Shown here piece after piece: positions 6,101 through 64,000 of a stretch of DNA of 64,000 nt. Within the stretch, counting starts at the first letter, position 1. The number at the start of each line of letters is the position of its first letter. A model generated the notes under the pieces. It saw only the letters and a program-made list of their open reading frames with translations, was not told where the DNA came from and did not search any database. The position numbers were made by a program, and so were the translations under genes. Source of the DNA: Paramacrobiotus metropolitanus (Eukaryota; Tardigrada; Eutardigrada; Parachela; Macrobiotidae); contig NW_026570365.1 of the NCBI RefSeq assembly GCF_019649055.1, forward strand, positions 1-64,000, in the 5' to 3' direction.

Positions 6101-6311
6101 AGCGAATGATAATCCAGCACCTTTTATAGTTATTCTGCAGAGAAAATCTCTCACTAATTCTGCGCTAAAAGTGCGCTGTGGTGCGGTATCACCTAAAGGC
6201 ATTTTTAACTCAAAAGTCAAGCTTCCGCTTAAACTGGTGTTAACGCTATTTCCGTCTTGTTTGTTTTTCACGCGCAGTGATCCGTAAGCAAGAAAAAGCA
6301 TCAAAATTATC
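3110..6311. other. intergenic, no supported gene
   Basis: This stretch is AT-rich. A short tandem array of TGTACTTATT/TGTACTTCC units lies at about 3299-3365. Open stretches at 3753-3989 (minus), 4857-5114 and 5872-6102 (plus) have no recognisable motif and no paired splice signals I trust. Part of the last 300 bases is the upstream region of the sugar transporter, but I see no clear core promoter. Confidence 0.5.
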
Positions 6312-7889
6312 ATGTTTGAACACAGCCACCTTACTTTCCGCTTAGCCCTGGCCTTACTGGCCGCCACCTTTGGGACCTGGTTCACGCACAGTTTCAGCAT
6401 GTCGGCTCTCAACGTTCCGCAGTTTATCGTGCAGAACTGGATCCGCTCCGTCAAATGCCATCGTTTCGGTGGCATTTTCCGCGGCAACTATATCACCGGC
6501 AATTTAACCAACGCCGATTACTTCACCAACGCCACTGCCGATCCTACCCTGGCGCTGTGGTGTAGCGCCATCCCATCTCAACAAAAAGCGCGGGTGCTGA
6601 GTGATAACACGGAACTGAACACCCTGTGGGCGTTGTTTTCCTCCATGTTGTGCGTCGGCGCCCTCTTCGGGACGCTGCTGACCAATCCCCTGATCCGCTG
6701 CGTCGGGGTCAAACGGTCTCTGATGTGCGGAGCTGTGGTGCTGGCCGCCGGTTGCGTCATGTGTTCGTTCGCACCACTGGCGGCAGCGTGGGAGCTCTTT
6801 CTCGTCGGACGGATTGTCATAGGACTGGGAATCGGGGTGGGCTCCGTGGTAGCCCCTGTCTATACGGCGGAGATCACCCCTCCGGACCTGCGGGGTGCCG
6901 CTGGAACCCTACCGCCGATTATGTACGTGCTGGGATTAATCGCCACCACGGCAATCGGATTCCCGTCGGCGCTGGGGACGGAAACGGGGTGGCCGTGGTT
7001 GGTCAGCGTTGTACTTATCCCGGTGGCGGTGTCCTGTATTGCGCTTCCATTTTGCCCGGAGAGCCCGCGGTATCTTTACATGGAGAATAACGATGTGCAG
7101 CATGCCACGGCAGCGCTGGCATGGTTTCGTGGCACCTCCGACATCCAGGACGAAATCGAGCAGATGCACATGGAAGTTAACCACATGAAAGGAATGCGGA
7201 AGGTGTCGGTGTGGGGCCTCTTCACCGATCCGTACCTGCGGAAAATCACCGTCCTGACCGCCGTCCCCATGCTGGTCCACCAGTTCTGCGGATTCCAGTG
7301 CGTGATTTTCTATTCCACGTCCATCTTCGACAGCGTGGGACTGCGACAGTTGTATTCCGTATACGCCACGATGGGCGTCTGGTGCTGCTACTTCGCCTCG
7401 TTATTCATCTCGATGTTCCTGGTGGACCGGTTGGGACGCCGGACATTGCTGCTGATCAGCCAGTGCGGGATGATCGTCGCCCTTATCCTCTTTGTTATTT
7501 TTGCTAGTATAACGGAGAGCGGTGTCGAGGGAACGGAGTATGGAAGTGCAGCGTGTCTGCCGTTCTTTATTGTGTGCTTTGCGCTGGGCTCGGCGGCAAT
7601 TCCCTGGATCCTCCCCGGGGAACTGTTTCCACAGGAGGCCCATAGCTCCGCGGCCAGCTTTACTGCGTCAGTGTGTTGGGCGTCCGCCATCCTGACGACC
7701 TTTTTGTTCCCGATTGTGCAGCATGCGGCGAAGCAGTACACGTTTCTGATTTTTGCCGGTTTGGTCATTCTGGGAACAGTGCATGTGGCCTGGAAGTTGC
7801 CGGAAACTAAAGGAAAAACTATTGATGAGATACAGACATATTTGCATGATGAAAGACTTATTAGCGAGCATGCGTTGCATGAGTGAACG
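6312..7889 (+). CDS. SLC2/GLUT-like sugar transporter, intronless
   Basis: A single uninterrupted ORF encodes 524 residues, the usual length of facilitative sugar transporters with twelve membrane spans in the plasma membrane. Diagnostic motifs are in the family order: an AEITPPDLRG block near residues 186-195, PESPRYL at 249-255, the QFCGFQ segment of TM7 near 324, DRLGRR at 372-377, a PWILPGELFPQE block around 431-442, and PETKG at 497-501 before a short cytoplasmic tail. NLT at about 64 and NAT at 73 are likely N-glycosylation sites in the long first extracellular loop, as in GLUTs. The substrate (hexose or polyol) cannot be read. The ATG at 6312 is chosen because it directly precedes TM1. 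The ORF is clearly more GC-rich than its AT-rich surroundings and has no intron, unlike the other genes here, which suggests a retrogene or a lineage of intronless copies. Confidence 0.93.
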
Positions 7890-10495: not shown

Positions 10496-11312
10496 AAGGG
10501 TAAAGCACGGAATAAAAAAACTGCAAAAAATGGTGCAAGGAGTAAAAGATTGTGAAAGGTAGTGTACCGAGTGGTCATTAATTATTTCATACAAGCACCA
10601 AAGCTGGTGGCTTTTATTAAGGGAAATGGCCCGGTACATGGTGCCTAATTTGGGTACATACACGAAGACATCCACTTTCGCGAACTCCCAAACACTTTTC
10701 TGCATCGCTTTGTTGCATTCCGAAGCCAAATGATTTGTGTACATTGGTGTGAAAACCATTTGTGCGCGCAACATCCGGTTGGGAATTTATGAGCGAAATA
10801 AGATTACGAAAAGTTTAAATGCAAGAAGGTGTACCAAAAGTCTCATTGTGAAGCGATCTCTTCCAAATGTTGCAGAAAAAGGCACATAAGTATAAAGATC
10901 GTTTTGACACGCAAACAGAATTTTGGTATTTCTTCCAATTTTAAAATGAATTTTAAAATTTTTTAAATTCATTCTAAAATTTGAAAATCATCATGGAAAC
11001 CTGGTTCCGTGTCGAAACGATCTTTATTCTTATATACCGTTTTGCGCAAAACTTTAAAAAGATCGCTTCATAATGAGACTTTTGGTACACCTGCTTGCAT
11101 TTAAACTATTCGTAATCTTATTTCGCCCATAACTTCCCAACCGGATGTTGCGCGCACAATTTAACGGTTTTCGCACCAATGTACACAAATCATTTGGCTA
11201 CAGAAAGCAATAAAACGATGCAAAAAAGTGTTTAGGAGTGTGCAAAAGTGGTTGTTTTCGTATATGTACCCAAATCTGGCAACATGTACCGGGCCAATTC
11301 CCTTTACACCTG
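10496..11312. repeat. large palindromic (fold-back) repeat, fullest copy
   Basis: A left arm (about 10620-10945) and a right arm (about 10985-11312) are imperfect reverse complements around an AT-rich centre of A/T-only words near 10945-10985. Matching landmarks are GTGCGCGCAACATCCGGTT on the left and AACCGGATGTTGCGCGCAC on the right, and the paired blocks GGTGTACCAAAAGTCTCATT and AATGAGACTTTTGGTACACC. The left side carries an extra outer 120 bases (10496-10620) that also occurs at 8936. No transposase-like ORF is present; the ORFs in the arms are by-products of the symmetry. Confidence 0.85.
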
Positions 11313-21861: not shown

Positions 21862-22833
21862 TCATCGGTAAGGATTGATGCCGTCGACAGGCACAGTGCC
21901 GCGGATATATTTCGCGAAACATCCGGATTTCCATCGGCCGGTACGTTGAATTTGGCTGTCTTCGCATCCTGCCAAGGCGGCTGTCGTTGTGCCGCCGATG
22001 CGGAAGCTGTGGGTACTGTACTTCTGGTGATCCGGAAGCGCACGCAAAAGTTTCTTCAAGGTGAAATCGACTGCAGAGCGGGTAAGGTAGGCACCGCTAG
22101 ACTGAATGAAGAGCGGTTCACGTTGGCTGGCCATGGTCGTCCTAACCGCTGTGTACGCGCGTAAGGATTCCACGGGATACACGGAACGCCCGGTCTTGCG
22201 CAGTGACAGACGATAACCATACCCGAACTGATCCGTCTTTGTTGACTTCAGATTCAGAACGACAGAATCTGTGTGGAGTGTGACGTCTTCCAAGAGGAGG
22301 GTCTGCTTGGCTGCAAACTGATTGGGCGCAGCAGCGGTATATTCGCTCACCCTCAAGAGTCCGGTGAAAGCCGCAGTGAAGGCTGCCCAGTACATTTTCT
22401 TATCGAGGGAAGGCAGGCTGGACTTCGATATTTCGTCTTTCAGGTGACGCATAATCTGCAGCGTGATGGGCAGGCGTTGGTCACGTTGTTGTCCAGATAA
22501 GCGCTGGTAACCGTCCATTGCACGCATCACGACGTTTGAGCCAGCGAACGGAGTTAAGCCACGTTCAACATGCAGCTTACTAATAGCGGCTAAATACACC
22601 TTTGCGGTTGATGGCGCAACATTCCGCAAATGCAAATGCGCGATAAAACGGAGAAGGGTTTCTTTTGATGCCGGCAGGCTGGTTTCACCGTGCGCGCGGC
22701 AGTACGTGGCAAACTGGTGCCATCCGGAACCATATGTATTTCTGGTACTCTGCGCCAAGTGTTGTTTTTGTAGCATGGACGCAACATCGTTCAGCTGACC
22801 GAGGCCGTGTAGCTGCTCTGTAAATCGCTCCAT
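21862..22833 (-). CDS. tyrosine recombinase of the DIRS-type element
   Basis: The 323-residue ORF is a phage-integrase-family recombinase. The N-terminal SAM-like DNA-binding half contains STRNTYGSGWHQFATYC and STAKVYLAAISKLH. The catalytic half has the first arginine in GLLRVSEYTA, HSFRIGG as the H-x-x-R box, GRWKS for the W/H position, and the nucleophile tyrosine in AKYIRG near the C-terminus. All catalytic residues appear to be present. The start overlaps the end of the RT/RNase H ORF by about 43 bases in a different frame, as is common in this class, so translation may depend on reinitiation, or an upstream in-frame start may be used. Confidence 0.9.
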   Translation of the reverse strand: MERFTEQLHGLGQLNDVASMLQKQHLAQSTRNTYGSGWHQFATYCRAHGETSLPASKETLLRFIAHLHLRNVAPSTAKVYLAAISKLHVERGLTPFAGSNVVMRAMDGYQRLSGQQRDQRLPITLQIMRHLKDEISKSSLPSLDKKMYWAAFTAAFTGLLRVSEYTAAAPNQFAAKQTLLLEDVTLHTDSVVLNLKSTKTDQFGYGYRLSLRKTGRSVYPVESLRAYTAVRTTMASQREPLFIQSSGAYLTRSAVDFTLKKLLRALPDHQKYSTHSFRIGGTTTAALAGCEDSQIQRTGRWKSGCFAKYIRGTVPVDGINPYR

Positions 22834-24803
22834 ATGTCGGGAAGACTGTCGGGGTAGAGGTTGGCTGCGGGTGCTAGCCGGCGAAACCGGTCTACCTGAA
22901 AGCGGGAGATTGCATCAGCTACGCCGTTATCACATCCACTAATATGTTTGATGGTGAAGTGGAAGTTTCCTTCTGCTGCGATCATGGTCATTCTGCGCAT
23001 GAGGTCAAGCACAGCTCGATTGGTTGAGCCTAACTTATCCCAAGCCTCACAGACTCCCAGATTGTCACAGTGAAACATAACGTTCTTGTTCCGAAACGAT
23101 TGCTGCCACAGCGTTATCGCGAACAAGACGCCTAACATCTCCAGATACTCGATGCACGGCATGGCATCCTTAATCCATTGTGGCCATGGAGATGCAAACC
23201 AGCGGCCGCTGTAATAACCGCCCACTCCAAGGCGGCCCGAGGCATCGGTAGAGAGGTGCAACGTGTCTGGCCTGCTCCATTCTGGCTCCAGAATAGTAGC
23301 TGAACCATTCCAAGCGGGCAGAAACCTGAGCCACCAAGCGATGTCCAACTGAAAGTCAGCGTCTAGTTGAATGGCTGTGACAAACCGGGGTCTGTGAGTG
23401 GACAGACCGGACATTTTGTGAATGAGACGTCTTAAGTAAAGCCTACCAGCCGGCACACATTTGGTTGCAAACTGTAACGAGCCGACAAGACTCTGCAGTT
23501 CTACCAACGAGCATGACGTTTTCTTCGACCAGGACCGAAGCAGCTCAGTTAGATTGTTGAGCTTTCCTTCTGGTAAAGACAAAGTCTGAGCAACGGAATC
23601 GATAGTTATTCCCAGAAAGACTATGCGCGTGCATGGGCCCTCTAGCTTGTTTGCTGCGAGCGGAACACCCAATTCGTCACACAGTTTCATGAACAAACTG
23701 ACCAATTCAGCGCATCTACTACCAACCGGCGCGATGATTAGGTAATCATCAATGTAGTGTAAAAGTGCAACGTGGCCGGAAATCTTGCAAAATATCCAGT
23801 GTATGGCATCAGAGCACATACAAAATAAGCGCGGCGCGGAGCGGCAGCCAAAAGGTAAAACCACGTCGTGGTAATATTTACCTTTGAACTTGTAGCCAAG
23901 AAGGTTCCACTGAGAGCGGCGTACAGGAATTAGGCGGAACGCATTGGCAATGTCCAGTTTCGCCATCACTGCGCCCTTTCCATATGCGGCGATCAGCTTA
24001 GTGGCGTCGTCCACAGAACAAAACTTCAAAGGTGGTTCATCCTTTGCGATGAAGTCGTTGACGGATGTTCCAGTCGGTTGGGAGAGGTCCATAATTGTGC
24101 GAAATCCACCGCTGGACTTCGGTCTAACACCAAGAGCGTTGCAAACAAAGTTTGGTAGTGGCGGCCGGTCGAAAGGGCCGAGTGCGTGACCACATTTAAC
24201 GCTGTTCTCAATTGATGATGAAATTGCTTCAGGATTTTCATCTGCAGTGCGGGAATTTTTTGTGTAGCGGGATAATTCTGGGCCGCGGTATCCAATATCC
24301 GCTCCGTCAGTGATCATGCGGATCAAATCTTCGACAAACGTTCGGTCAGGATGTGCTGACAGGAGTTTTTTGAAGGCCGCCGGTTTAAGTGGCGTACTAC
24401 TCCTAACGGCGTTCAGCTCGCTTGTCATACCGACGGGGGCAATTGTATTCGGCGTGACCTTCGGAATTGCATTCGCTGCACTCGTGCAAGCGTCCTCGGC
24501 GGCATGGTGTTGTGCAGTTTCCTTTGTTGAAATTGTTGCAGATTTCGCCCTCTGCAGCCGGGCGCCCGCGAAAGGGCTGCTTACAATCCCGTGCGACGTG
24601 GCCCACCTCCTTGCAGCGTCCGCACTGCAGCGTGCTATGTCGTGGGTTCGACAAGCCGCTAGTGCTGGCTGTTCGTGCAGTGAGAGTCTTGGGATTAGCG
24701 ATGCACTCCTGGAAAGACTCTTCATGGCGTCGCGTCCAGATTTCAAAATCAAGGGGGTTATTGGCAGCGTAGTTCCGGAATTGCATGTCATATTCCATGA
24801 CAT
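22791..24803 (-). CDS. reverse transcriptase-RNase H polyprotein of the DIRS-type element
   Basis: The open frame is 670 codons, but only from roughly residue 135 on does it look like true pol sequence; the first 400 bases overlap gag in another frame and are probably not translated as pol. RT motifs in order: FRTIMDLSQP, AKLDIANAFRLIPV, PFGCRSAPRLF, and the catalytic box YIDDYL, followed by FLGITID. RNase H follows with STDAS, YLEML, HCDNLG and NGVADAIS carrying the four acidic residues. The enzyme copies the element RNA and removes the template. Both catalytic centres look intact. Confidence 0.9.
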   Translation of the reverse strand: MSWNMTCNSGTTLPITPLILKSGRDAMKSLSRSASLIPRLSLHEQPALAACRTHDIARCSADAARRWATSHGIVSSPFAGARLQRAKSATISTKETAQHHAAEDACTSAANAIPKVTPNTIAPVGMTSELNAVRSSTPLKPAAFKKLLSAHPDRTFVEDLIRMITDGADIGYRGPELSRYTKNSRTADENPEAISSSIENSVKCGHALGPFDRPPLPNFVCNALGVRPKSSGGFRTIMDLSQPTGTSVNDFIAKDEPPLKFCSVDDATKLIAAYGKGAVMAKLDIANAFRLIPVRRSQWNLLGYKFKGKYYHDVVLPFGCRSAPRLFCMCSDAIHWIFCKISGHVALLHYIDDYLIIAPVGSRCAELVSLFMKLCDELGVPLAANKLEGPCTRIVFLGITIDSVAQTLSLPEGKLNNLTELLRSWSKKTSCSLVELQSLVGSLQFATKCVPAGRLYLRRLIHKMSGLSTHRPRFVTAIQLDADFQLDIAWWLRFLPAWNGSATILEPEWSRPDTLHLSTDASGRLGVGGYYSGRWFASPWPQWIKDAMPCIEYLEMLGVLFAITLWQQSFRNKNVMFHCDNLGVCEAWDKLGSTNRAVLDLMRRMTMIAAEGNFHFTIKHISGCDNGVADAISRFQVDRFRRLAPAANLYPDSLPDIWSDLQSSYTASVS

Positions 24804-25534
24804 GCTCGAACTTATAGCCCCGGTCGGGATCTGACAGAAGCCCGATGAGGTCTTGGTATTTCATCAACGGGATTATAAAGTCCGGGTGGTGGAACGTGCG
24901 GTATTCAACGAATACTGAGAATGCTCGTGACCATTTAAAATAATCGGTAATCTGCTCCTTCTTCATAGACGGAAGAAAAATAGCTTCGCCGGTGGTAGGG
25001 TCGTGTGTCATCTTAGTGCCCGTCTGCGGCCGCTTGGAAGGCACTCTATTTTGTGGTAGCAAATCCGCAAAGTCCACAAACTGCGAGTGATCAAGCAAGG
25101 CGTCGCGCAACTTGGGGTTCACCGCTCGCAGGTCTCGATACACGGACGGGCCAAGTCGTTCGTAGATGTTTTTGTTCAATAGTGATTTCAGTAATTGGTT
25201 TCTTACTGTTACCTGCAACAACACGATTCGAAGAGGGAGACAGTGTTCGGCTGGGACCAGCGTTCACGGTAAGAGGTCCATGCGCCGCACTCTTTTCCAC
25301 GGTTGTAATTCTTTCATTAAGCGCCTGGACTTGATCACTGATGTTCTTCAGAAGGTCGTTCGTGCTAGGTGGAAATGTCGTTGACGGCGGTACTGTCACC
25401 TGTGAGCGGAGACGGTTTTGTGCGGGAGGAGATGCGCTGGCTATTCGTTTACGGCCGCGACTCGCAGAAGCCTCTGTCGGTCTCCCGCGTCCCGACGGTC
25501 TGCCGCGTCCTGAACGTTTGGGTGGCATCTTCAA
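24403..25534 (-). CDS. gag of the DIRS-type element, in two overlapping frames
   Basis: The first ORF (25534 down to 25091) starts with a basic RGRPSGRGRP-rich segment and a short coiled-coil-like stretch (LLKNISDQVQALNERI). The second (25224 down to 24403) continues in another frame with a capsid-like region and zinc knuckles: CGRCKEVGHVARDC (CCHC), a CNNFNKGNCTTPC cluster and CSECNSEGHAEYNC. The sequence suggests one structural protein interrupted by a one-base shift in the 25091-25224 overlap. This could be a mutation, a sequence error or programmed frameshifting; no slippery site is obvious. Confidence 0.75.
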
Positions 25535-25979
25535 GCTGTAGTATTCGGTTATCGAAAGAACTGGGTAAAGTTTTCTTTCTCAAAATAAAAGAACTTCTAA
25601 AAGAACAAGATCACTCGCGCGCACACGATACAGAAATGCAAAGACAACTGCATGTCGAAACAGAAACGCAAAACCAAATGCGGGCACAGGAACAGTGCCG
25701 GGCGCAAACAGCACGCGCAAGCGCACCGGCGGCCGCTTTGATCTAAGGGCCGCGACAGCGCGCAGCGCCATCTCTCGAGGCTCACGTAACGCGCTACGGC
25801 GGGAGAAAAGAAAAGAGCGGGAGGCATACCCTCCAGCTAACATTAACAACAATTAACTTGTTAATTGTAACTTATGTTACGATTTAGTGCAGACCGCAGT
25901 TAGTTTGATCACGGTCCAGAGCATAAAACTTGTCAGATGCCTCAAAGAGTGTCACGGCAACGTTACTCCAAATAAAAAA

Positions 25980-33049: not shown

Positions 33050-33531
33050 AGTATGTGTACATGCTATAAAATTTCAACCAAGCCAACGAGCTGGAATACA
33101 AAGAATTCACATGATTAATTTTCTTGTAATATGAGCGAATGATTCCATGCTTTGTTTACGGTCTTTAGCTAATGCCACGAAATTAACACACAAGAGAAAG
33201 CCTAAAGAAAACTGGCATGAAAAAGGAAGTCATATACCGGCTTCAACAGTAAACAAGCAGAAAAAGTACCGCTTATGCTTTCTATGTAAACCGGCTTTTA
33301 TCGAATGCGTGGAATCATTCGGCAACAAAACACTCTAAAGGCGCCAACCTACTGATATGACTTATGTTTTACTTGTGCAGTTAAGGGGATCCCTATGAGA
33401 TGAAAGTGGGTCTGGCAAAACATGAATAGGTTAAAAACAACTGGAAGATCATTGTTTCCATTGTTCTGACTGCATGCACAAAGGATTTGGCTACACAATG
33501 ATGTATTGCGATCTGGCTACACAATGGTGTT

Positions 33532-35316
33532 TTGCGAGCTAACCCAGCCAGCCCTACTGTTTTGTTGAAGCTCGATTTTCGAAACGCTTTCAACACTGTT
33601 CGGCGTGATGTAGTCCTGGAACAGGCTGCTGAGAAATTACCGCAGTACTTTCATTTCGTTTCTCAGTGTTACAGAAATTCTTCTACTTTGTTCTGCGGTG
33701 AAACTACGATGCCGTCATCCCATGGAGTGCAGCAGGGTGATCCGCTTGGCCCGTTGCTGTTTTGCCTCGCTTCTAACAAGCTGTCAAGAAACCTCCAGTG
33801 CGAACTCAACGCCTGGTTCCTGGACGATGGGACGGCAGGGGGAGACCCCGAAGTAGTTTTAAACGACTTCACCCGAGTACGTGATGACGCGTCAAGAATT
33901 GGCCTGGAACTCAACTTTGCCAAGTGTGAACTGTACGTTTATGGCGGGTCTGAAGCGGAACAGCAGAGCATCTACGACCGTTTTGCTGCAGTTGCACCGG
34001 GCATTCAAAGATTAACTGCTGAAACACTGGATTTGCTCGGTGCTCCCCTCACTGACTGGTCAATCGGCCGTTGCCTGGACAGTAAGATTAGCCAGATCAA
34101 AAAGTTAACCGATTCTTTGGGTGTTTTACCGGCACAGCAGGGGCTATTTTTGCTGCGAAACAGTCTTTCACTCCCGCGCCTTATGTACACCCTACGATTG
34201 GCCCCGTGTCATAAATATCCCGAGAAGCTAAAGGAGTTTGATCACGCTATTAGGTCCAAAGCCGAAGAAATAACGAATGTTAAAATGGATGAGAGCTTAT
34301 ACGCCCCGGCCTCCTTACCGGTGAAGTCTGGGGGTTTGGGATTGCCTAAAGCAGAGGAAATTGCAACACCGGCTTATCTCTCCTCGCTGTATTCCACTGA
34401 CGAATTGGTATGCACTATTGTGCCCGAAGATTGCCCCGACGACCGGTCAGACGTTGAAGTACGCTGGGAAGAAAGCACGGGAAAAGCTGCTCCTGCGATG
34501 GAAGATCGGTGCAGACAACGTTTGTGGTCGGACATGCTGACTGCCGCTAAACTGGAATCCTTAAAAGAGAACGCCGACGTTATTACCTCTGCTCGTCTGT
34601 TGGCTGCTTCTTCTAGGGACGCCAGTGCGTGGTTGTTTGCATTGCCGGTTGCTAGCCTTGGTACACTGCTAGACGACGCTGGTCTACGGATCGCTGTTGC
34701 TTTACGTATGGGGGCACAGATTTGCAAGGAGCATAAATGCCGTTGTGGGGAAATAGTCGATGCTCGCGGCTTGCATGGTTTGTCATGCTTAAAAAGTCAG
34801 GGAAGGTACAGGCGACATGCGAGTTTAAATAGCGTGATTCAACGCGGCCTGGGATCAGCAAAGGTGCCGGCAATCTTGGAGCCTCCTGGCTTAAGTAGAT
34901 CGAATGGAAAGCGGCCTGATGGACTATCACTGTTTCCTTGGAAAAATGGCCAGCCCTTGATATGGGATGTGACGGTTTGCGACACATTCGCCATGTCTTA
35001 CATTGCCGGGTCATCTGTAGCGGCAGGATCGGCAGCGGAAGATGCAGAAGATCGAAAGCGGAGCAACTATGCGGAGCTGACTGATCGTTATTTTTTCCAG
35101 CCTGTGGCTTTCGAAACTACGGGAAGTTGCGGCGTTAGCACCCGTCAGTTCATCAGTGAAATTGGCCGACGTATCACAGAACAAACAGGGGAACCGCGAG
35201 CTACCGATTTCCTGTGGCAACGTATTAGTGTGGAAATCCAGCGCGGAAACGCGGCTTCTGTTTTAGGAACTGTCGGCTGTTCTACAGAGCTAGAAGAGAT
35301 ATTTTACTTGTTCTAA
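33532..35316 (+). CDS. non-LTR retroelement ORF: RT catalytic part, zinc cluster, restriction-like nuclease domain
   Basis: The frame is open for 594 codons but starts inside the RT domain. LLKLDFRNAFNTVRRD (first catalytic aspartate, about residues 11-26), GVQQGDPLGPLLFCLA (65-80) and the catalytic box FLDDG (96-100) are present; the N-terminal fingers motifs and any ORF1 are missing. After the thumb comes a CRCGEIVDARGLHGLSC cluster that looks zinc-binding. It is followed by GKRPDGLSLFPWKNGQPLIW then DVTVCDTFAMSYI, whose P-D...D-V-T pattern resembles the PD-(D/E)xK-type nuclease at the C-terminus of R2-like elements. The end, EPRATDFLWQRISVEIQRGN to EEIFYLF, is shared with three other copies here. 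It is intact while the others are broken. It may be a truncated copy or a reduced gene carried by the surrounding inverted-repeat unit. Confidence 0.85.
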   Translation: MRANPASPTVLLKLDFRNAFNTVRRDVVLEQAAEKLPQYFHFVSQCYRNSSTLFCGETTMPSSHGVQQGDPLGPLLFCLASNKLSRNLQCELNAWFLDDGTAGGDPEVVLNDFTRVRDDASRIGLELNFAKCELYVYGGSEAEQQSIYDRFAAVAPGIQRLTAETLDLLGAPLTDWSIGRCLDSKISQIKKLTDSLGVLPAQQGLFLLRNSLSLPRLMYTLRLAPCHKYPEKLKEFDHAIRSKAEEITNVKMDESLYAPASLPVKSGGLGLPKAEEIATPAYLSSLYSTDELVCTIVPEDCPDDRSDVEVRWEESTGKAAPAMEDRCRQRLWSDMLTAAKLESLKENADVITSARLLAASSRDASAWLFALPVASLGTLLDDAGLRIAVALRMGAQICKEHKCRCGEIVDARGLHGLSCLKSQGRYRRHASLNSVIQRGLGSAKVPAILEPPGLSRSNGKRPDGLSLFPWKNGQPLIWDVTVCDTFAMSYIAGSSVAAGSAAEDAEDRKRSNYAELTDRYFFQPVAFETTGSCGVSTRQFISEIGRRITEQTGEPRATDFLWQRISVEIQRGNAASVLGTVGCSTELEEIFYLF

Positions 35317-35496
35317 TTTTTGGAAATATTTGTCTAAGTGTTAAATGGCATTTGCTTGTACAAGTATTGCGATCTTGTCTACGCTCTCTCTGGACAGAGC
35401 TATTCAAGAAACAAAGGAAAAACTTTGAATTCAAAAGTCGAATGAGAAAGTTTTTTCAAATTAGATGTGATACACATCATTGGATGTGCTTTAGCC

Positions 35497-35646
35497 TAGA
35501 AAGCTTATATTCTCCAACATGCTAATAAAAAATGTTGTTAGTTTACAAAAAAATCGAGAAAAACACTTTTTGAAAAGTGTTTTTTTGAGTTTATTCAAAC
35601 ATGCCTTATTGGACTATGGCAGTGTCTCGGTATATAAGCTTTCTAG
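35497..35646. repeat. nested fold-back structure
   Basis: The outer arms CTAGAAAGCTTATAT (35497) and ATATAAGCTTTCTAG (35632) are inverted repeats. A second hairpin with AAAACACTTTT and AAAAGTGTTTT arms lies between them at 35559-35585. It lies within the TTAA-flanked unit, downstream of its ORF. Confidence 0.7.
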
Positions 35647-36639
35647 AAAATAACACATTATCTGATGCTCTTTTGGAAAGTGTAGCAAGTTTTACAATGG
35701 AGTTATCGAATTTTAAAGCCATTTCACAAGTTTCTGGAAAACGGCAGCTGAATGAAAGGCTTGCTGACTGACCGGCAGCAATGTGTGGCAGAGCCGGCTA
35801 CCCAAGCCCGCGTTTTGCAGGATAGAGATCAGACAGAGCATAGCTAGAGAGGGAAGAATCAGCTTGGCTCCGGCCACAGGACAGCATGAGGCGTTCTGTT
35901 CTGCTGTCCAGGTCTATCTGCCATGCGGCTGGCCATGGCTAGCCGATAACATCATTGCACTTACTTCGCCTATGCTGACCCGGTCTTGTTTTTTTACTAA
36001 TAACTTATGATCGCAATTTAATATATCCCATCGAGACATACTATTTGAAAGCCCGAAAAATTTCCTACAAGCTGATGTTAATATCGATAACCCATTTATA
36101 TGAAAGTCATCTCATAGTGATCCCCTTAACCGGTTAATACTGAGGACAAAAATTCGTTCGGCAGCTCGTATTGGGGGACATTTTGCTGTACCACGGGTTG
36201 TTGTAATTATCACTTTCTGGGCATGGTAACAACCGAGCAATAAACAGAAGACATTGTCCATTTCAATAAAGCATTTGTATTTTTTTATGTGTTTTAGAAT
36301 TTGAATGCCACATGCGTAACAAACTTTTTAAGCAAATAATTTAAATTGATGTAATACGTTTTGACTGACCAGCCTAATGTTAATTCTCCAGTATTAATAT
36401 TAGTTATTGGAGAAGACCCCCTATACCACCGTGTACCACGCAGCTGTGGTGTATTGCAACGCCTTTAATAACATTTTTTAAATTCTAGTACTACCATTGC
36501 AACATTATTAGCTCCACATGCAACAAAATATTTTACTGGCATATCTCTCTAGTGTATCAGTTTTTTATATGCATACAGTACATGTACTTCTATTATTTTC
36601 ATGATCAGCATATTTTGCGATATTTGATGGTTCTCATGC

Positions 36640-37335
36640 ACAGCCCCGTTCGTATTTATATGCTACGCTACATGCACGTGTACATGCACGGAAACATTCA
36701 TTTTCGCGTACTCCCAAACACATTTTTGTTTCGTTTTATAGCATTCTGTAGCCAGATGATTTGTATACACTGGTGTAAAAACCGTTTGTGCGCGCAACAT
36801 CCGGTTCGGGAGTTATGGCTGTAAGAAAATTCCCAAAAGTTTAAAACTAATGCGTTCAGGTGTACCAAAAGTCTCATTATGGACCGATCTCCTTCAAATT
36901 TTGCATGTAAATGCGCATGGCCATGAAGATCGTTTTTACACCGATCCAGACTTCCACGATTTTTTTCAAATTTTAAAATAAATTTTAAAATTTTTGAAAT
37001 TCATTTTAAAATTTGGAAAACATGCTAGAACAGTGGATCGGTGTAAAAACGATCTTCGTGGTTATGTGCATTTACTTGCAAAATCTGAAAGAGATCGGTC
37101 CATAATAAGACTTTTGGTACACCTGAATGCATTTAAACTTTTTGGAATTTTCTAACAGCCATAACTCGCGAACCGGATGTTGCGCGCGCAAACCGTTTTC
37201 AGGCCTGTGTATACGAATCATTTGACTACAGATTGTCATAAAACAAAAAAAGAAAGGGTTGGGGAGTGCGCGAAAGTGGAAGATTTCGTGCATGTACACG
37301 AATTTGGTACCATGTACCGGTCCACTTCCCTTAAA
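36640..37335. repeat. palindromic repeat family, second nearly complete copy
   Basis: The arms share landmarks with 10620-11312: GTGCGCGCAACATCCGGTT on the left, AACCGGATGTTGCGCGCGC on the right, GGTGTACCAAAAGTCTCATT and its complement, and an AT-only centre at about 36965-37005. The end near 37310 carries ACCATGTACCGGTCCACTTCCC, matching the copy at 11280-11310. Total length is about 695 bp with no coding content. Confidence 0.85.
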
Positions 37336-44591: not shown

Positions 44592-44651
44592 TCCTTAGTG
44601 CTACGGATTAAACAGACATGAGTCAAGTCTGTTTAATCCATAACACTAAGG
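44592..44651. repeat. long hairpin, 25-bp stem
   Basis: The arms at 44592-44616 and 44627-44651 are reverse complements at 23 of 25 positions (GTCTGTTTAATCC is exact) around a 10-base loop. It stands 40 bases before the minisatellite. It could be a tiny fold-back element. Confidence 0.85.
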
Positions 44652-44689
44652 AAGGCGTATCAATGGTTTAACCTTGTATTTCTAAATTT

Positions 44690-45120
44690 GATTCGGCCGG
44701 GACTGGACCGCGGTACTCCACCTACCGCCCGGCACTGTTTTGTGTGGCCGGAAGTAGCCCGCGGTACTGTGCCTATCGCCCGGAACTGTCTGGTGCGGCC
44801 GGAAGTGGCCCGCAGTACTGCACCTACCGCCCGGAACTGTCTGGCGCGGCCGGAAGTTGCCCGCGGTACTGCACCTACCACCCGGAACTGTCTGGTGCGG
44901 CTGGAAGTGGCCCGCGGTACTCTAGCTACCGCCCGGTACTGTTTTTGGTGGCTGGAATTTGCCCGCGGTACTGTACCTATCGCCCGGAACTGTCTGGTGC
45001 GGCCGGAAGTGGCCCGCAGTACTGTACCTACCAGCCGGCACTGTTTTGTGTGGCCGAAAGTAGCCCGCAGAACTGTGCCCACCGCCCGGCACTGTCTGGT
45101 GTGGCCGGAAGTCGATTTAG
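44690..45120. repeat. 51-bp GC-rich minisatellite, about eight units
   Basis: About 8.4 imperfect copies of a 51-base unit that includes CGCGGTACTG, CACCTACCGCCCGG and AACTGTCTGGTGCGGCCGG. Because the unit is a multiple of three and has no stop, it is open in two plus frames and one minus frame. Plus examples are VARGTVPIARNCLVRPE (17 residues) and PRYCTYRPELSG; minus is GRTRQFRAIGTVPRATS. Nothing (start context, splice sites, flanking coding) shows that any frame is translated. Confidence 0.93.
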
Positions 45121-45124
45121 TCAA

Positions 45125-46361
45125 AGTTGCGCTACACGTTAAGTCTTAATATTTTTCTGACCCTAGCCATATCTGACTTGCTATTACGGTGTTAACTATG
45201 GCTGTTTTGTTACTTTCAGTTTGATGGAAAGTTTAAAATGAGGATCGTGCGGATTCCTTATACATAAAAAATGACTCAGAATTTGTTCAGTCCGACACTG
45301 AGCATTCGGTTGGATAGACCATCGTGACACTGACCAAAAAGAAACAACAACTCAGCCAACAATTCAGGAACGTTTGCGAACGTTTAAAACTACGGCCTGC
45401 GCGTTAATAGCGTAGAAGGTGCTTCGTAGACAAAAAAACAAAATAACGGGGCTCACCCGAACCTGCAGATCGCCTTGACGCACACGATCTTCAGTTTCCC
45501 CCAGCAGAGCGCTGGTTAGGAAAGGGCCAAAAACCGGTAACCACTGAAAACTGTTCCTATGAATTGACCCGCGCCCTCCTGACTTGCGGATGGTGGGAGA
45601 AATGTAAACCAGCAATACTTTCTTGATTGTATTTCGTTGCGAATGATCCCAAAGGACATCCCACGTCTGTACGGGTGGATACCGCCCAAGGAGTCCAAAG
45701 AGGATTTTCACTTTTTTCGACCACTCTCCAAGTTGACCGTAGTCCTGACCCTGGAGTGGCCTCTGGTCAGGGTTAAGTGACGTGCCACCCGAAGGACCAC
45801 CGGATATGGCTTTGTCGCTCCCGGATGTGGCTCCTGTGGCCGATCCCCAAAGCGGAATTTAAAACTAATTTTTCGTGGGAAGGAGACCACCAAAGTTTAA
45901 TTGGACTTCTGCGCATTATTGAAAAGGTCTATTTTAGTTTTGTTAAGTTCCTGTGAATTTTTTGTATTTCAGCTCCAATCTTGATTTACCTGTCTTGTAA
46001 GTGCAGAAGAACCTATTGACAATCATGTGAAGTTAATTAAAATTTTGTTTCTGACCAGCAAAGATTTTCTAAAAAAAACCCGCCAATTTGCCGCGAACGT
46101 TGTGTAATAATACAGTATTTCAAGTTTCAGTCCGAGAGACTTCCTATCGAGTGATACTTCACTTTGTCGCACGCAGCACTTTTCTTGCCATGCTAGTGTT
46201 ATTATTGCCATGCTAGTGTTATTATCAACAAGTTCGTGCCGAACGATGTGTTATCCAGAAGTGTCATATAAGTGAGTTATGCGTCTAATTTCCTATCTGA
46301 AAGTTACCCGCAACGGAATCCCTGAACTACCCGGGTAGCAGTTAAAGCATCATTGCACGGA
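45125..46361. other. no assembled gene; open minus-strand stretch
   Basis: On the minus strand 45711-45474 is open (VKILFGLLGRYPPVQTWDV...) and ends near a GTGAGC donor. Another frame from 45893 precedes it. It may be an exon or an old element; I do not recognise it. A 19-base tandem duplication (GCCATGCTAGTGTTATTAT) lies at 46188-46225. Confidence 0.25.
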
Positions 46362-49849: not shown

Positions 49850-50285
49850 GTCTAAGCCCACATTACTATGAAGGTCGTTTTGGCACCGAACCAGCTTTTC
49901 GTAATTTTTTTCAAATTATAAATTAACTTCTTAAATTTTTAAAATTCATTTTAAAAATTAAAAAAAGTCGTGGAAAGCAGGTTCGGTGCTAAAACGACTT
50001 TCATAGTAATGTGCACTTTTATGCAAAATTTCAAAAGCATCGGTTCATAATGTGACTTTTGGTATACCACCGCGCGTTTAAACTTTTGGAATTTTATTTC
50101 ACTAATAACTCTAACCGGATGTTGCGCGCACAAACGGTTTTTCGCCTATACAGTATCCTTTGGATGCCGAAATATCATAAAACAATGCAAAAAAGTGTTC
50201 GAGAGTGCGCGACAGCGAGAGTTGCCATATGTGTGCGAATTTGGTGCAGTGCACCGGGCCAGATCCCAAATCCCTTAAGTAAAAG
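49850..50285. repeat. palindromic repeat family, left-truncated copy
   Basis: The AT-only centre at about 49915-49965 and the full right arm are present (AACCGGATGTTGCGCGCAC near 50114, AATATCATAAAACAATGCAA near 50170, GCACCGGGCCAGATCCC near 50251). The left arm is shortened to roughly 60 bases. Confidence 0.8.
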
Positions 50286-50589
50286 GGTATTGCGTAATAA
50301 AACCGATACACTAGGGAAATATACGAGTAAACAGCTTTTTTCTTGTGGAGTTGATAGTGGTGTTGCAAAGTTTGGTATTAAAGATGGTGTAAGAAGCCGA
50401 AACTGGGTGGTAAAGGGTAGCTTAGGGGGCCCTCTCAATAATTACGCCGTTACGAAGGTCAGTTAAAAATTTATTAGATCAAATAAACTATTTAAGTAGA
50501 GTTTCCTATTTTTGTACCTTCAAATTCTAGAACATAATTTAAATTGCAGTTGCTTTATTGAAACTGACAGTATCTTTGCTTAAAAGCTT

Positions 50590-51060
50590 ATTTATTAATT
50601 ATGTCCAGAAAGCTGAATAACAATTACAACAAACTGTTGTACAGCAAAATGTCCTCCAATTAACACCGCCAAACGTCTTTTCGTTCTCAGTATTAACCGG
50701 TTAACTGCAGCAGTGAAATATGGATCGTACCATTCAGCTGGTGTCTTTACCGCTTTTTGTTGCCACATAATTCCACGCATTTGGTAGAAGCCGGTTTTCA
50801 TATACAAGCGAAAGCTGTAGAAGTACTCCTTTGGCTTATTAATTTTACAGTTGAAGGCGGTACACGAATGCCATTTTCATGCCAGGTTTTCTCCAGGCTT
50901 TCTCTTGTGCAATAAATTCGCGGCATTAGCCAAAGATCGTAAACAAAGTATAGAATTTATTGCTCATATTACGAGAAAGTAGTCATATGGATTCTTTGTA
51001 CTCCAAATCGAGGGCTCATTTTACATTCTGTAGCACATACATACAAGCGCTATATAAAGA
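50590..51060 (-). repeat. second copy of the older repeat, with the empty TTAA site
   Basis: Read on the minus strand this matches 33050-33384 joined directly to 36126-36300. The junction here is CTGCAGTTAACCGGTTAATA (near 50692-50711) with a single TTAA, showing what the other copy looked like before the 2.74-kb insertion. It contains degenerate coding-like words ([17 protein letters not shown]) but no intact ORF. Confidence 0.75.
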
Positions 51061-57679: not shown

Positions 57680-57866
57680 CGCTTGTTACCCTCATAACTC
57701 CGCAACGAGATGTTGCGCGCGAAAACGGATTTCCCGCGTTATGTACACAGATCATTTGGCTACACTAAACCAAAAGCAATACAAAAAGTGCTTGGAAGTG
57801 CGCGAAAGCGAATATTCCCGTCAGAGTGCACGAATTTGGTGCTATGTACCAGGCCAAACCCCTTAA
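57680..57866 (+). repeat. palindromic repeat family, single arm
   Basis: Shared landmarks: GTTGCGCGCGAAAACGG, TGTACACAGATCATTTGGCT, GTGCTTGGAAGTGCGCGAAA and GGTGCTATGTACCAGGCC. Only a right-arm-like half is present; no inverted partner follows. Confidence 0.8.
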
Positions 57867-60737
57867 AGCGTTGTTACGTGGAGCAATGAGTCATGACTAT
57901 TCAAATAGGGTAATAAAAAACTGCTTTCCAATAAACTTCTTCAAAATGTTTCAGTATTGTCACATTTGTGCAAAACTCATTAAAGAAAAGGAATTCTTTG
58001 AACTGGCTCCAAAAAACCTTCGTCGTAAAGACGAAAAGCTGCAAAAGGTCCATTTTATTAATTAGTCATATTATTGTCGAACAGGCCAAATTTCTTACAG
58101 TTTTATCGCGCCGGAATCCTCGTAAATTAAAGAGAGGTGTGCTGGTACACAGTACCAATTATTAATTAGTGTAATCAAACACCTATTTCAGACACCGGTA
58201 TTCACCGCAGGTGAATTTCGGGGCCTCGCTCTCACGAGGCTTGCATGTTAATTAGCGTAATCAAATGCACGGGAACTTTTGTATCTGCGCCCTCTTATTC
58301 ATTGCAGATTTTAAATCGCATTTTTCAAGGTATATTTTGGAAATAAAATGGTGGGAATTTCATTTGGTAAAAACGGCCAGCATGTACGCAAGAACGGAAA
58401 CGATGCCCTTGCCCACTGCTCAGAGCTTGAACTGTTGAATGCACAGAATCGCGCAAAGGGTCACACCTTCCACTGACCACTACGGATCAACTGAAAAATA
58501 CATGACCACGAATCAGGCCTGTTGAGTAAACAGAAGTTACCGGATCTCGTAATACTGTTTGTTGTTTAGACCAAATAGGACCAGAACCGTTGCCACTGCG
58601 GCACTGCCTAGTTTACTGTAGTGCTAATGCTTTTTTAAAAGTTGTTACAACAATTCAAAGAACGCAGTGCCGGCCTGTGCAAAACTCACACTATCCCCCG
58701 ACAAGGTTCACTGAATTACGGGAACGGTCGCCATTGCCCAAGATTAACAACTTGTCACCGCCCTTAGAGCATTACTACCTGCATGGATTCGAGTGCCAGA
58801 GTGAAGGCATCTACAGTTTTTTTATGCTAAATGCAATTTTTTCAAAATTTTATTCGAAAAAGCTCGAAATTCAGAACAGTTCAGCCCATAGTCCATACCA
58901 GTGCATTGTATATATATAAAGATCACTGATCAGGGATGCTGCCTAATTGACGGAGTTGTCTTTTACACAGGAACGGAAGACAGTGCGTAATCGCATAACT
59001 TATTTCTTAACAGCTTGGTTTTTGTGTGCGCTTTTTGTTCGAAAATTCGTAGCGTGGGACGGCTATTCCGACGATTCTGTAGTACATTACGTGCTGGAAT
59101 AGCCATGCATATTGTACTTGTACTCCCAGTGTACTCGTACACTGTGCGATTACGCACTGCCTTCCGTCGTACGTAATAGCAGGTCCTGCACTCCGCTTAT
59201 TCAGCAGACCTGACCAGAGATGAGAGATTCATATATTTTTGCATTGGTATGGACCTATGGACCTATGGTTGAGGCGTTTTGAAAATCGCAAAGTGCAACA
59301 GATCAAATCGTATACGACCAAATAATATACCGTACTACAAACTCGTACTCTGTATCTGTTCGCTAAAGGTTCGCTTTGATTTTTCTTCGCATGCTGCATT
59401 CTAATAAGTCGCGGACAATATACGAAACATGACTTTTTTTCATATTCAGTATTCAGACTTCGGATCGCACAAGAACTATTTTCCAAGAAATTGACTGTAG
59501 ACCACAAAGAGCATCTGAGGGAAAGCCGAAGATGACAGTTGTTCATTACTACTAATTTTTAAAGATTCGTTAAAGAGAACCATCAAACCACCATGCATAA
59601 TGCATTCTACTGATACTTATGGTGGACCACTGGACCTTACATTCAAAACGAATCAGGTTTCATTATAAGAGCACCTTTCAAGGTGGCTTTGCGTATCTGT
59701 GTGAATAGCAACTGTAAACAGCATCGCGTGTGGTTGTGCAACCATATCAAAACGATGTTAAGTTACTCATAACATTTGCATTGATTCCTGAAAAGGAAGA
59801 CCACAATGGAGGCACCAGTCGATCCATAAGGTCTCTTTTTAATCGCCGCGGTTCGGCTATTAAGCTAAAAATTGCACGTGCAAATTTTCCTCTTCGGAAA
59901 CGTATGTGCGTAGTGCATACAGCAGCATTCTTCCCTTGTTGGCATCTGAGAGTGGCAAGCCGGCGTATAGTCTATGCCAAGCGACGTGCATCAAGAAACG
60001 GGAAATGCAGCCGCTAGTCCCACACACTGGCAGTGCAATGTTAATAACTGCATCAGATACGGCAAGTGGTATCCGACTATACGGCAACTGCACTAAACTA
60101 ATTTCCTGCCTAAACTAATACTGCCGCCTACAAGACTGCTTACAAAAATCACTGCCAAGGTAGTCAACTTTTTCGCCTGCCGCGTCTTTCCAGCTACCGT
60201 ACAAATTTTGATGGTTAAGTTATAATTTCCTAACGATTATTGTTCTAGATAAACACTTAGCTTTTCAATAAATAAACAAGAAACCATTGGTTCGGGCGTT
60301 CAGCATTAGTAGTATGTTGTTTAATTGATTAACTCCGATCGGGTAAAATGCCCGGTTATCGAAAATCGATTTTTTCTGAGTCTGTGTGGTCTACCTTTAG
60401 CCCGCAAGCACTTTACGTCACTATATTCGACAAGCAGCGTATATGCTCGAGGGGAGGATAATAACTGTTATTACATCACGCATCCAGGCTGATCCAACTA
60501 ATCTTCCCGAAATAGCCTTGCAAGTGTAGGATGCAGCACCGCTTACCGAGTACACACAGCCTTGGTCTTCACTGCGGCAACCGGATATATCGGAGAACAG
60601 CTCGGATGATGATGATGCGGTGTGATCGTAATTTCTTTCCAACTTACACGAACTCCACCATATGCTGCGGATGATGTGCTCCCGATGATAATGCTGTGTG
60701 ATCATGATCTTTTTTATTAACTTACAGGCCTTCCACC
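57867..60737. other. no assembled gene; a duplicated block at 60.6-60.75 kb
   Basis: Open stretches at 58637-58800 (plus, RTQCRPVQNSHYPPTRFTEL) and 60093-59860 (minus, ending YALRTYVSEEENLHVQFLA) look mildly coding but show no domain. At 60605-60735 a block of about 60 bases (GATGATGATGCGGTGTGATC ... CTCCACCATATG) is repeated in tandem as GATGATAATGCTGTGTGATC ... TTCCACCATGTG. The second copy supplies the acceptor and start context of the exon at 60738. Confidence 0.3.
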
Positions 60738-63699: not shown

Positions 63700-64000
63700 A
63701 GGGAAGTCGCCCGTGTTCGTGTACATTTCCCCGACAGATCGTTCTTGCACGGATCCGGACTTGCACGATTTTTTTGGAATTTTAAAATAATTTTACAATA
63801 TTTTAAATTCATTTCAATATTTAAAAAACATGCGAGAACAGTGAACATCGTAAGAACGATCTCCATGGCAAGTTCACTTACGTGCAAAGTTTGCAAGAGA
63901 TCGGTCCATAATAAGATTTTAGGCACAAATGAATGCATTGTGTCATAAAGTCCCTTTCGGAATCTTGTTACCGTATCAACTCTTCAACCCGACGGTGCGC
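63700..64000. repeat. palindromic repeat family, partial copy at the window edge
   Basis: The AT-only centre (63775-63825) is flanked by ACAGATCGTTCTTGCACGG on the left and its partner CGTAAGAACGATCTCCATGG on the right, followed by AGAGATCGGTCCATAATAAG, as at 37087-37110. The right arm runs off the window. It sits in the intron after the kinase exon. Confidence 0.75.

Follow-up and report, generated by a model that had tools for sequence, protein, structure and literature searches.

At this locus, a unit spanning positions 33381–36129 of the window (the whole 64,000-nt stretch of DNA that was analysed, on contig C145 of a genome of 170 Mb in 533 contigs) is bounded by inverted termini that match at 22 of 23 bp, written TTAAGGGGA...CTATGAGATGA, with TTAA flanks on both sides. 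Between the termini lies a retroelement copy with a long open frame for reverse transcriptase (RT) and nuclease domains (Table 1). The terminus pattern, allowing up to three mismatches, was found twice in the window and 0 times in 100 shuffles, which excludes a chance origin of the termini. The repeat flanking the unit aligns to a sister repeat at 51041–50701 (73.7%) and 50704–50457 (71.0%), the two alignments overlapping by exactly one TTAA at 50701–50704. This position is a true empty site and, since the flank alignments meet at a single TTAA, the unit sits at a duplicated one. Both observations of the earlier note on this region, inverted termini with TTAA on either side and a related repeat preserving the empty one-TTAA site, could thus be confirmed.

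Table 1. Features of the nested unit and of the sister repeat, in window coordinates
Feature	Position	Strand	Remarks
Left terminal inverted repeat	33381..33403	+	TTAAGGGGATCCCTATGAGATGA; includes TTAA (33381-33384)
Right terminal inverted repeat	36107..36129	-	inverse of the left, one mismatch; includes TTAA (36126-36129)
Left part of the non-autonomous TTAA element (probably Kolobok-type)	33381..33514	+	unit 1-134 aligns to empty copies; ends in the left target duplication
Right part of the non-autonomous TTAA element (probably Kolobok-type)	35364..36129	+	unit 1984-2749 aligns to empty copies; starts with the right target duplication
Left 12-bp target-site duplication	33503..33514	+	GTATTGCGATCT; made by the retroelement
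Right 12-bp target-site duplication	35364..35375	+	first four bases, GTAT, also continue the retroelement 3' UTR
16-nt filler at the 5' junction	33515..33530	+	GGCTACACAATGGTGT; part of 26-bp direct repeat D1
5'- and 3'-truncated non-LTR retrotransposon (LINE) copy, predicted RLE-type	33531..35363	+	blastn to L051; 3' end ambiguous to 35367
604-codon open frame	33502..35316	+	predicted RT palm/thumb, CCHC knuckle, PD..D restriction-like endonuclease
Remaining 3' UTR	35317..35367	+	without the GAAATAAAG tail of L051, the closest long relative
Sister copy of the flanking repeat	50457..51041	-	empty TTAA site at 50701-50704

Several other features lie in the same window. On the minus strand, 21862–25579 holds overlapping long frames with a zinc knuckle (PF00098), an RT and an RNase H-like part (RVT_1 E 1.6e-12) as well as a tyrosine-recombinase-like frame that was recognised by eye and had no Pfam match, so that this stretch resembles a DIRS/Ngaro-type element that is nearly complete. 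An intronless frame of 532 codons at 6288–7886 (+), with a Sugar_tr match of 323 bits, lies in a GC-richer patch (53.6%) and could be a single-exon sugar transporter or a retrogene. We additionally observed foldback (self-complementary) repeats, about 70–84% alike, at 10617–11304, 36677–37335, 49859–50267, 57682–57867 and 63720–64000, and a tandem array in 51-bp steps at 44592–45149, with open frames on both strands.

The outer element without its insert

Searching the whole genome with the 23-mer of the terminus, one base left free, gave 35 sites without mismatch and 77 with up to three mismatches, and 0 sites for the reversed-pattern control. From these, 30 inward-facing pairs less than 15 kb apart could be assembled, with 17 sites left unpaired. 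The spacing is 873–896 bp in 22 of the 30 pairs and shorter in two (552 and 617 bp); the remaining six are longer, at 1,359, 2,749 (the window unit), 4,240, 6,947, 10,617 and 11,379 bp. Taken together, 24 of the 30 pairs are only 552–896 bp apart and therefore cannot hold the RT insert of about 1.85 kb, so that the termini surround many RT-less copies, the outcome that the earlier note had named as pointing to a chance nested insertion.

The short form of the outer element is about 888 bp long, and most fetched copies align to unit positions 1–134 and 1984–2749, the two stretches sharing up to 12 bp. Twenty of the 24 fetched loci were aligned across the insertion point, with the exception of L026, L027, L028 and L030, for which the site is missing or not covered by the fetched sequence. 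In 19 of these 20 copies, ...GGCTACACAATGGTGTATTGCGATCTTGTCTACG... runs on unbroken, apart from point differences, where the window holds the RT, and the twentieth, L032, carries a deletion at the insertion point. When L026, L027 and L030 were inspected by eye as candidate autonomous copies, no transposase was recognised in their frames. The 11.4-kb unit on C41, of which the ends were read, aligns there to element positions 729–887 and 1–375. Other inserts were seen in the family as well: a 462-bp insert with inverted ends of its own (GGATTGCGGCGGCTCT) lies near element position 757–763 in L019 (2812–3273, on C9), and an insert of about 6 kb on C76 occupies nearly the same place, at 751–760.

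The retroelement copy and its junctions

The window frame gives an RVT_1 match with an E-value of 8.6e-13 and contains the RT motif FLDD, and its best PDB matches are the R2 chains 8gh6 (E 4.8e-5) and 8ibw (2.7e-4). A family profile likewise finds R2 first (2e-14), with LINE-1-like chains at 1.8e-11; the full-length relative L043 alone places LINE-1 ORF2 (3.2e-7 to 1.1e-6) ahead of R2 (6e-5). At the C-terminal end, the CxC...H...C, KRPDG and WDVTV columns are invariant between the window sequence and seven full-length sequences. The nuclease stretch itself aligns so weakly to the R2 chain 9nl2 (1.8 bits) that the label of a restriction-like endonuclease is mainly a reading of these motifs. From the RT, the nuclease motif, the truncation and the target duplication, with no terminal repeats of its own, we assign the copy as a predicted RLE-type non-LTR retrotransposon.

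The earlier note had described its frame as intact. It is indeed open for 604 codons, but eight full-length relatives in this genome have frames of 945–975 codons from stop to stop, so that the window frame represents the C-terminal ~60% of the LINE protein and starts inside the RT domain. Target and filler sequence, read in frame, supplies its first ~9 codons (~29 bp); the RT fingers and the N-terminal finger are both missing from the copy, as is the 3' tail. An N-terminal C2H2 finger is indicated in L043 by a weak Pfam match below the cut-off (E 0.0056; RT E 2.6e-18), and the Pfam search of L057 gave no match to such a finger. That the other copies in the window are broken, as stated previously, holds true: the RT-like stretches matched by the window protein are fragments in several frames.

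At the junctions, the order is ...GTATTGCGATCT + GGCTACACAATGGTGT + RT ... CTTGTACAA + GTATTGCGATCT..., and the two copies of the 12-bp duplication match at every base. In 10 of the 19 spanning copies (counted by eye), the target sequence that immediately precedes the duplication site is identical to the 16-nt filler, the window's own upstream copy of this sequence now differing by a single base. L051, the closest long relative (94%, blastn), aligns over 33530–35367 and runs on at its 3' end as GTATGAAATAAAG. In the window copy, the LINE sequence ends with GTAT, and these bases also open the duplication; hence 4 nt are shared at the 3' junction and the terminal tail is missing. The truncations and the 4-nt overlap can, like the empty element, the duplication and the filler, be read directly from the sequence. 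A pre-existing 26-bp tandem in the target, followed by insertion without duplication, would yield the same sequence, and we rejected it, with such a tandem present in 0 of the 19 spanning copies. The combination of empty elements, 12-bp duplication and filled site gives base-resolution support to the proposal, raised in the earlier note, of a truncated retroelement that landed in a TTAA-duplicating non-autonomous element. We therefore consider it almost certain that the window unit is a truncated R2-like LINE nested in an ~888-bp non-autonomous DNA transposon, probably of the Kolobok type.

RT copies of this kind are dense, with four RT stretches in the 64-kb window and at least 74 matches in a genome search with the RT (73 scored of 3,700 first-look candidates). 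Flanking duplications were looked for in 18 RT copies of 30 loci, and seven (the window, L037, L038, L039, L040, L053 and L062) show duplications of 10–13 bp, of which 12 bp is the commonest size (five of seven). The other 11 copies showed no duplication of at least 10 bp with ends set from the BLAST limits, the 5' end of L047 lying off its locus. The copies examined share no common target site, their duplications lying at unrelated sites. In L037, L038, L039, L040, L053 and L062, a short stretch that differs between copies follows AATAAA before the duplication (by eye); this stretch may stem from the transcript further downstream or from nucleotides added without a template.

Between the window ORF and eight subfamily relatives, NG86 dN/dS was 0.04–0.09 at dS values of 0.995–2.72, and since dS is near or above 1 these ratios are rough. 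L052 gave 0.35, from 11 synonymous and 12 nonsynonymous changes, and L051 was left out, as its overlapping alignments counted codons twice (692 against the 604 of the query). Low ratios are as expected for a once-active LINE lineage and do not speak for selection on the window copy. This RLE LINE family is abundant and apparently non-specific, and purifying selection acted while its subfamilies diverged.

Class of the outer element and alternative readings

For the class of the outer element, the termini are informative. According to the published description, Kolobok elements duplicate TTAA and have termini of the form 5'-RR...YY-3', unlike piggyBac (PMC9587614). The outer element ends in TTAA-GGGG...CCCC-TTAA, which fits this rule, and shares the TTAA target duplication. 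The 10.6-kb unit on C3 (C3:3090443–3101059, assembled from L064, L068 and L065), with near-matching terminal repeats (one and two mismatches), contains a fragment that matches the Mutator-like transposase family PF20700 with an E-value of 3.9e-5 and 23.2 bits, below the cut-off of 26.5, and includes a DxxH stretch (DHSH, by eye). We take PF20700 to cover Kolobok transposases. The fragment has five matches in the genome; only that on C3 shares a contig with outer-element termini, and no intact transposase was found between such termini, the C41 unit being read at its ends. Given a match below cut-off and a single contig, Kolobok affiliation is probable rather than proven. Besides this remnant of a decayed Mutator- or Kolobok-like transposase, the C3 unit contains a frame resembling RNase H (by eye) and, within inverted arms of ~320 bp, a nested RT set.

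Alternatively, a piggyBac transposase could have mobilised the outer element, which would then be a genuine non-autonomous member of the piggyBac type; its TTAA duplication and the presence of such transposases in the genome (38 matches to PF13843) would allow this. However, its GG...CC termini follow the Kolobok rule (PMC9587614), and at three of four piggyBac loci the candidate TTAA-adjacent ends begin with C (CACTCG, CCCTATAG and C[T/C]CTTAATGG), unlike GGGGATC; the fourth, L070, yielded no candidate terminal repeat. The nearest match to PF13843 (DDE_Tnp_1_7) lies 19 kb from any of the 77 terminus sites, so that a piggyBac transposase with matching termini, which the earlier note had advised to look for, was found at none of them within that distance, and the transposase-like fragment in the C3 unit matches PF20700 instead. 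We thus regard the piggyBac reading as unlikely and the label 'piggyBac-type' as probably wrong, its 5'-GG...CC-3' ends obeying the published Kolobok rule (PMC9587614).

A more far-reaching reading, offered as an alternative in the earlier note, makes the RT-nuclease gene a cargo of the TTAA transposon, with the whole unit moving together. Both terminal repeats are intact around the window RT, RT genes also occur within the terminus-bounded units on C82 (4,240 bp) and C3 (10,617 bp), the C76 unit (6,947 bp) has RT fragments in an insert of ~6 kb, and L027 has one about 440 bp from its lone terminus-bearing end. The details of these inserts are, however, at odds with a common cargo. On C82, an RT of another subfamily sits near element position 827–834 with an 8-bp duplication, AAGCTGAT, and C3 holds a third subfamily (98.9% to L046) with the 10-bp repeat GAACAAGTAA on both sides, the right copy lying about 86 nt beyond the usual 3' end (the C3 junctions read by eye). 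Since subfamilies, sites and duplications (12, 8 and 10 bp for the window, C82 and C3) all differ and the RTs lie at different internal places, the three are independent insertions. Moreover, the C82 and C3 inserts were found from the side of the termini; among the best 30 RT loci, taken with 1.5-kb flanks, only the window (L033) has them. Together with the 24 pairs too short for an RT and the private target duplications, this refutes the cargo reading as a statement about the family and makes it extremely improbable altogether.

R2 targets 28S rDNA, and the RLE retroelement could be target-specific for the outer transposon family in a similar manner, since an RT sits immediately within the element in two of the 30 pairs (window and C82), and at a deeper level in C3; this has next to no probability, because sister RT copies differ in 3' flanks and duplications, the inserts lie at different element positions (~123–134 in the window, ~827–834 on C82), and a density of four RT stretches per 64 kb would already predict one to two hits in ~27 kb of these elements.

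Proposed insertion history and related systems

We propose a model in which the ~888-bp non-autonomous element, probably of the Kolobok type, would have entered a TTAA first, and RNA of the abundant R2-like LINE would then have been copied into it. How the strands were cut, primed and repaired, and in which sequence, we infer as follows. The cuts by the restriction-like endonuclease of the LINE would have been staggered by 12 nt, and the nicked bottom strand, ending in ATAC, could have primed on a GUAU within the 3' UTR, about 10–20 nt before the normal 3' end. Reverse transcription would have halted within the coding region of the RT; the 16-nt filler, copied from adjacent target sequence, would have joined the 5' end, and fill-in of the stagger would have produced the 12-bp duplication. 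A Kolobok transposase, if still active, could in principle move the 2.75-kb unit including the RT, and perhaps has done so once already, which we judge very unlikely; if true, it would represent a first step towards a DNA transposon that carries a reverse transcriptase along as a passenger.

The nested reading removes the tempting claim of a 'piggyBac carrying a reverse transcriptase' and illustrates that an end-truncated LINE, read in frame inside a DNA element, can mimic an intact unit. What remains is a clean record of one insertion, featuring a 12-nt stagger, a probable 4-nt internal priming and a 16-nt filler copied from the target.

In comparison with known systems, the inner element resembles R2-type and other RLE non-LTR retrotransposons, which likewise combine a C2H2-like N-terminal finger, an RT, a CCHC knuckle and PD..D in a single ORF, and shares 5' truncation and target duplications with them. 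Many non-specific RLE families have been described in the HERO clade (PMC4640811), and by analogy a placement of the window family in this clade is suggested. The outer element shares with Kolobok and its non-autonomous derivatives the TTAA duplication and the 5'-RR...YY-3' ends (PMC9587614), here within 23-bp terminal repeats, and this likeness extends to the terminus-bounded relic on C3 with its Mutator-like transposase fragment, whereas the short ~888-bp copies leave no room for a transposase gene. With piggyBac it has the TTAA duplication in common, but its termini are unlike the candidate ends of three piggyBac loci in the same genome.
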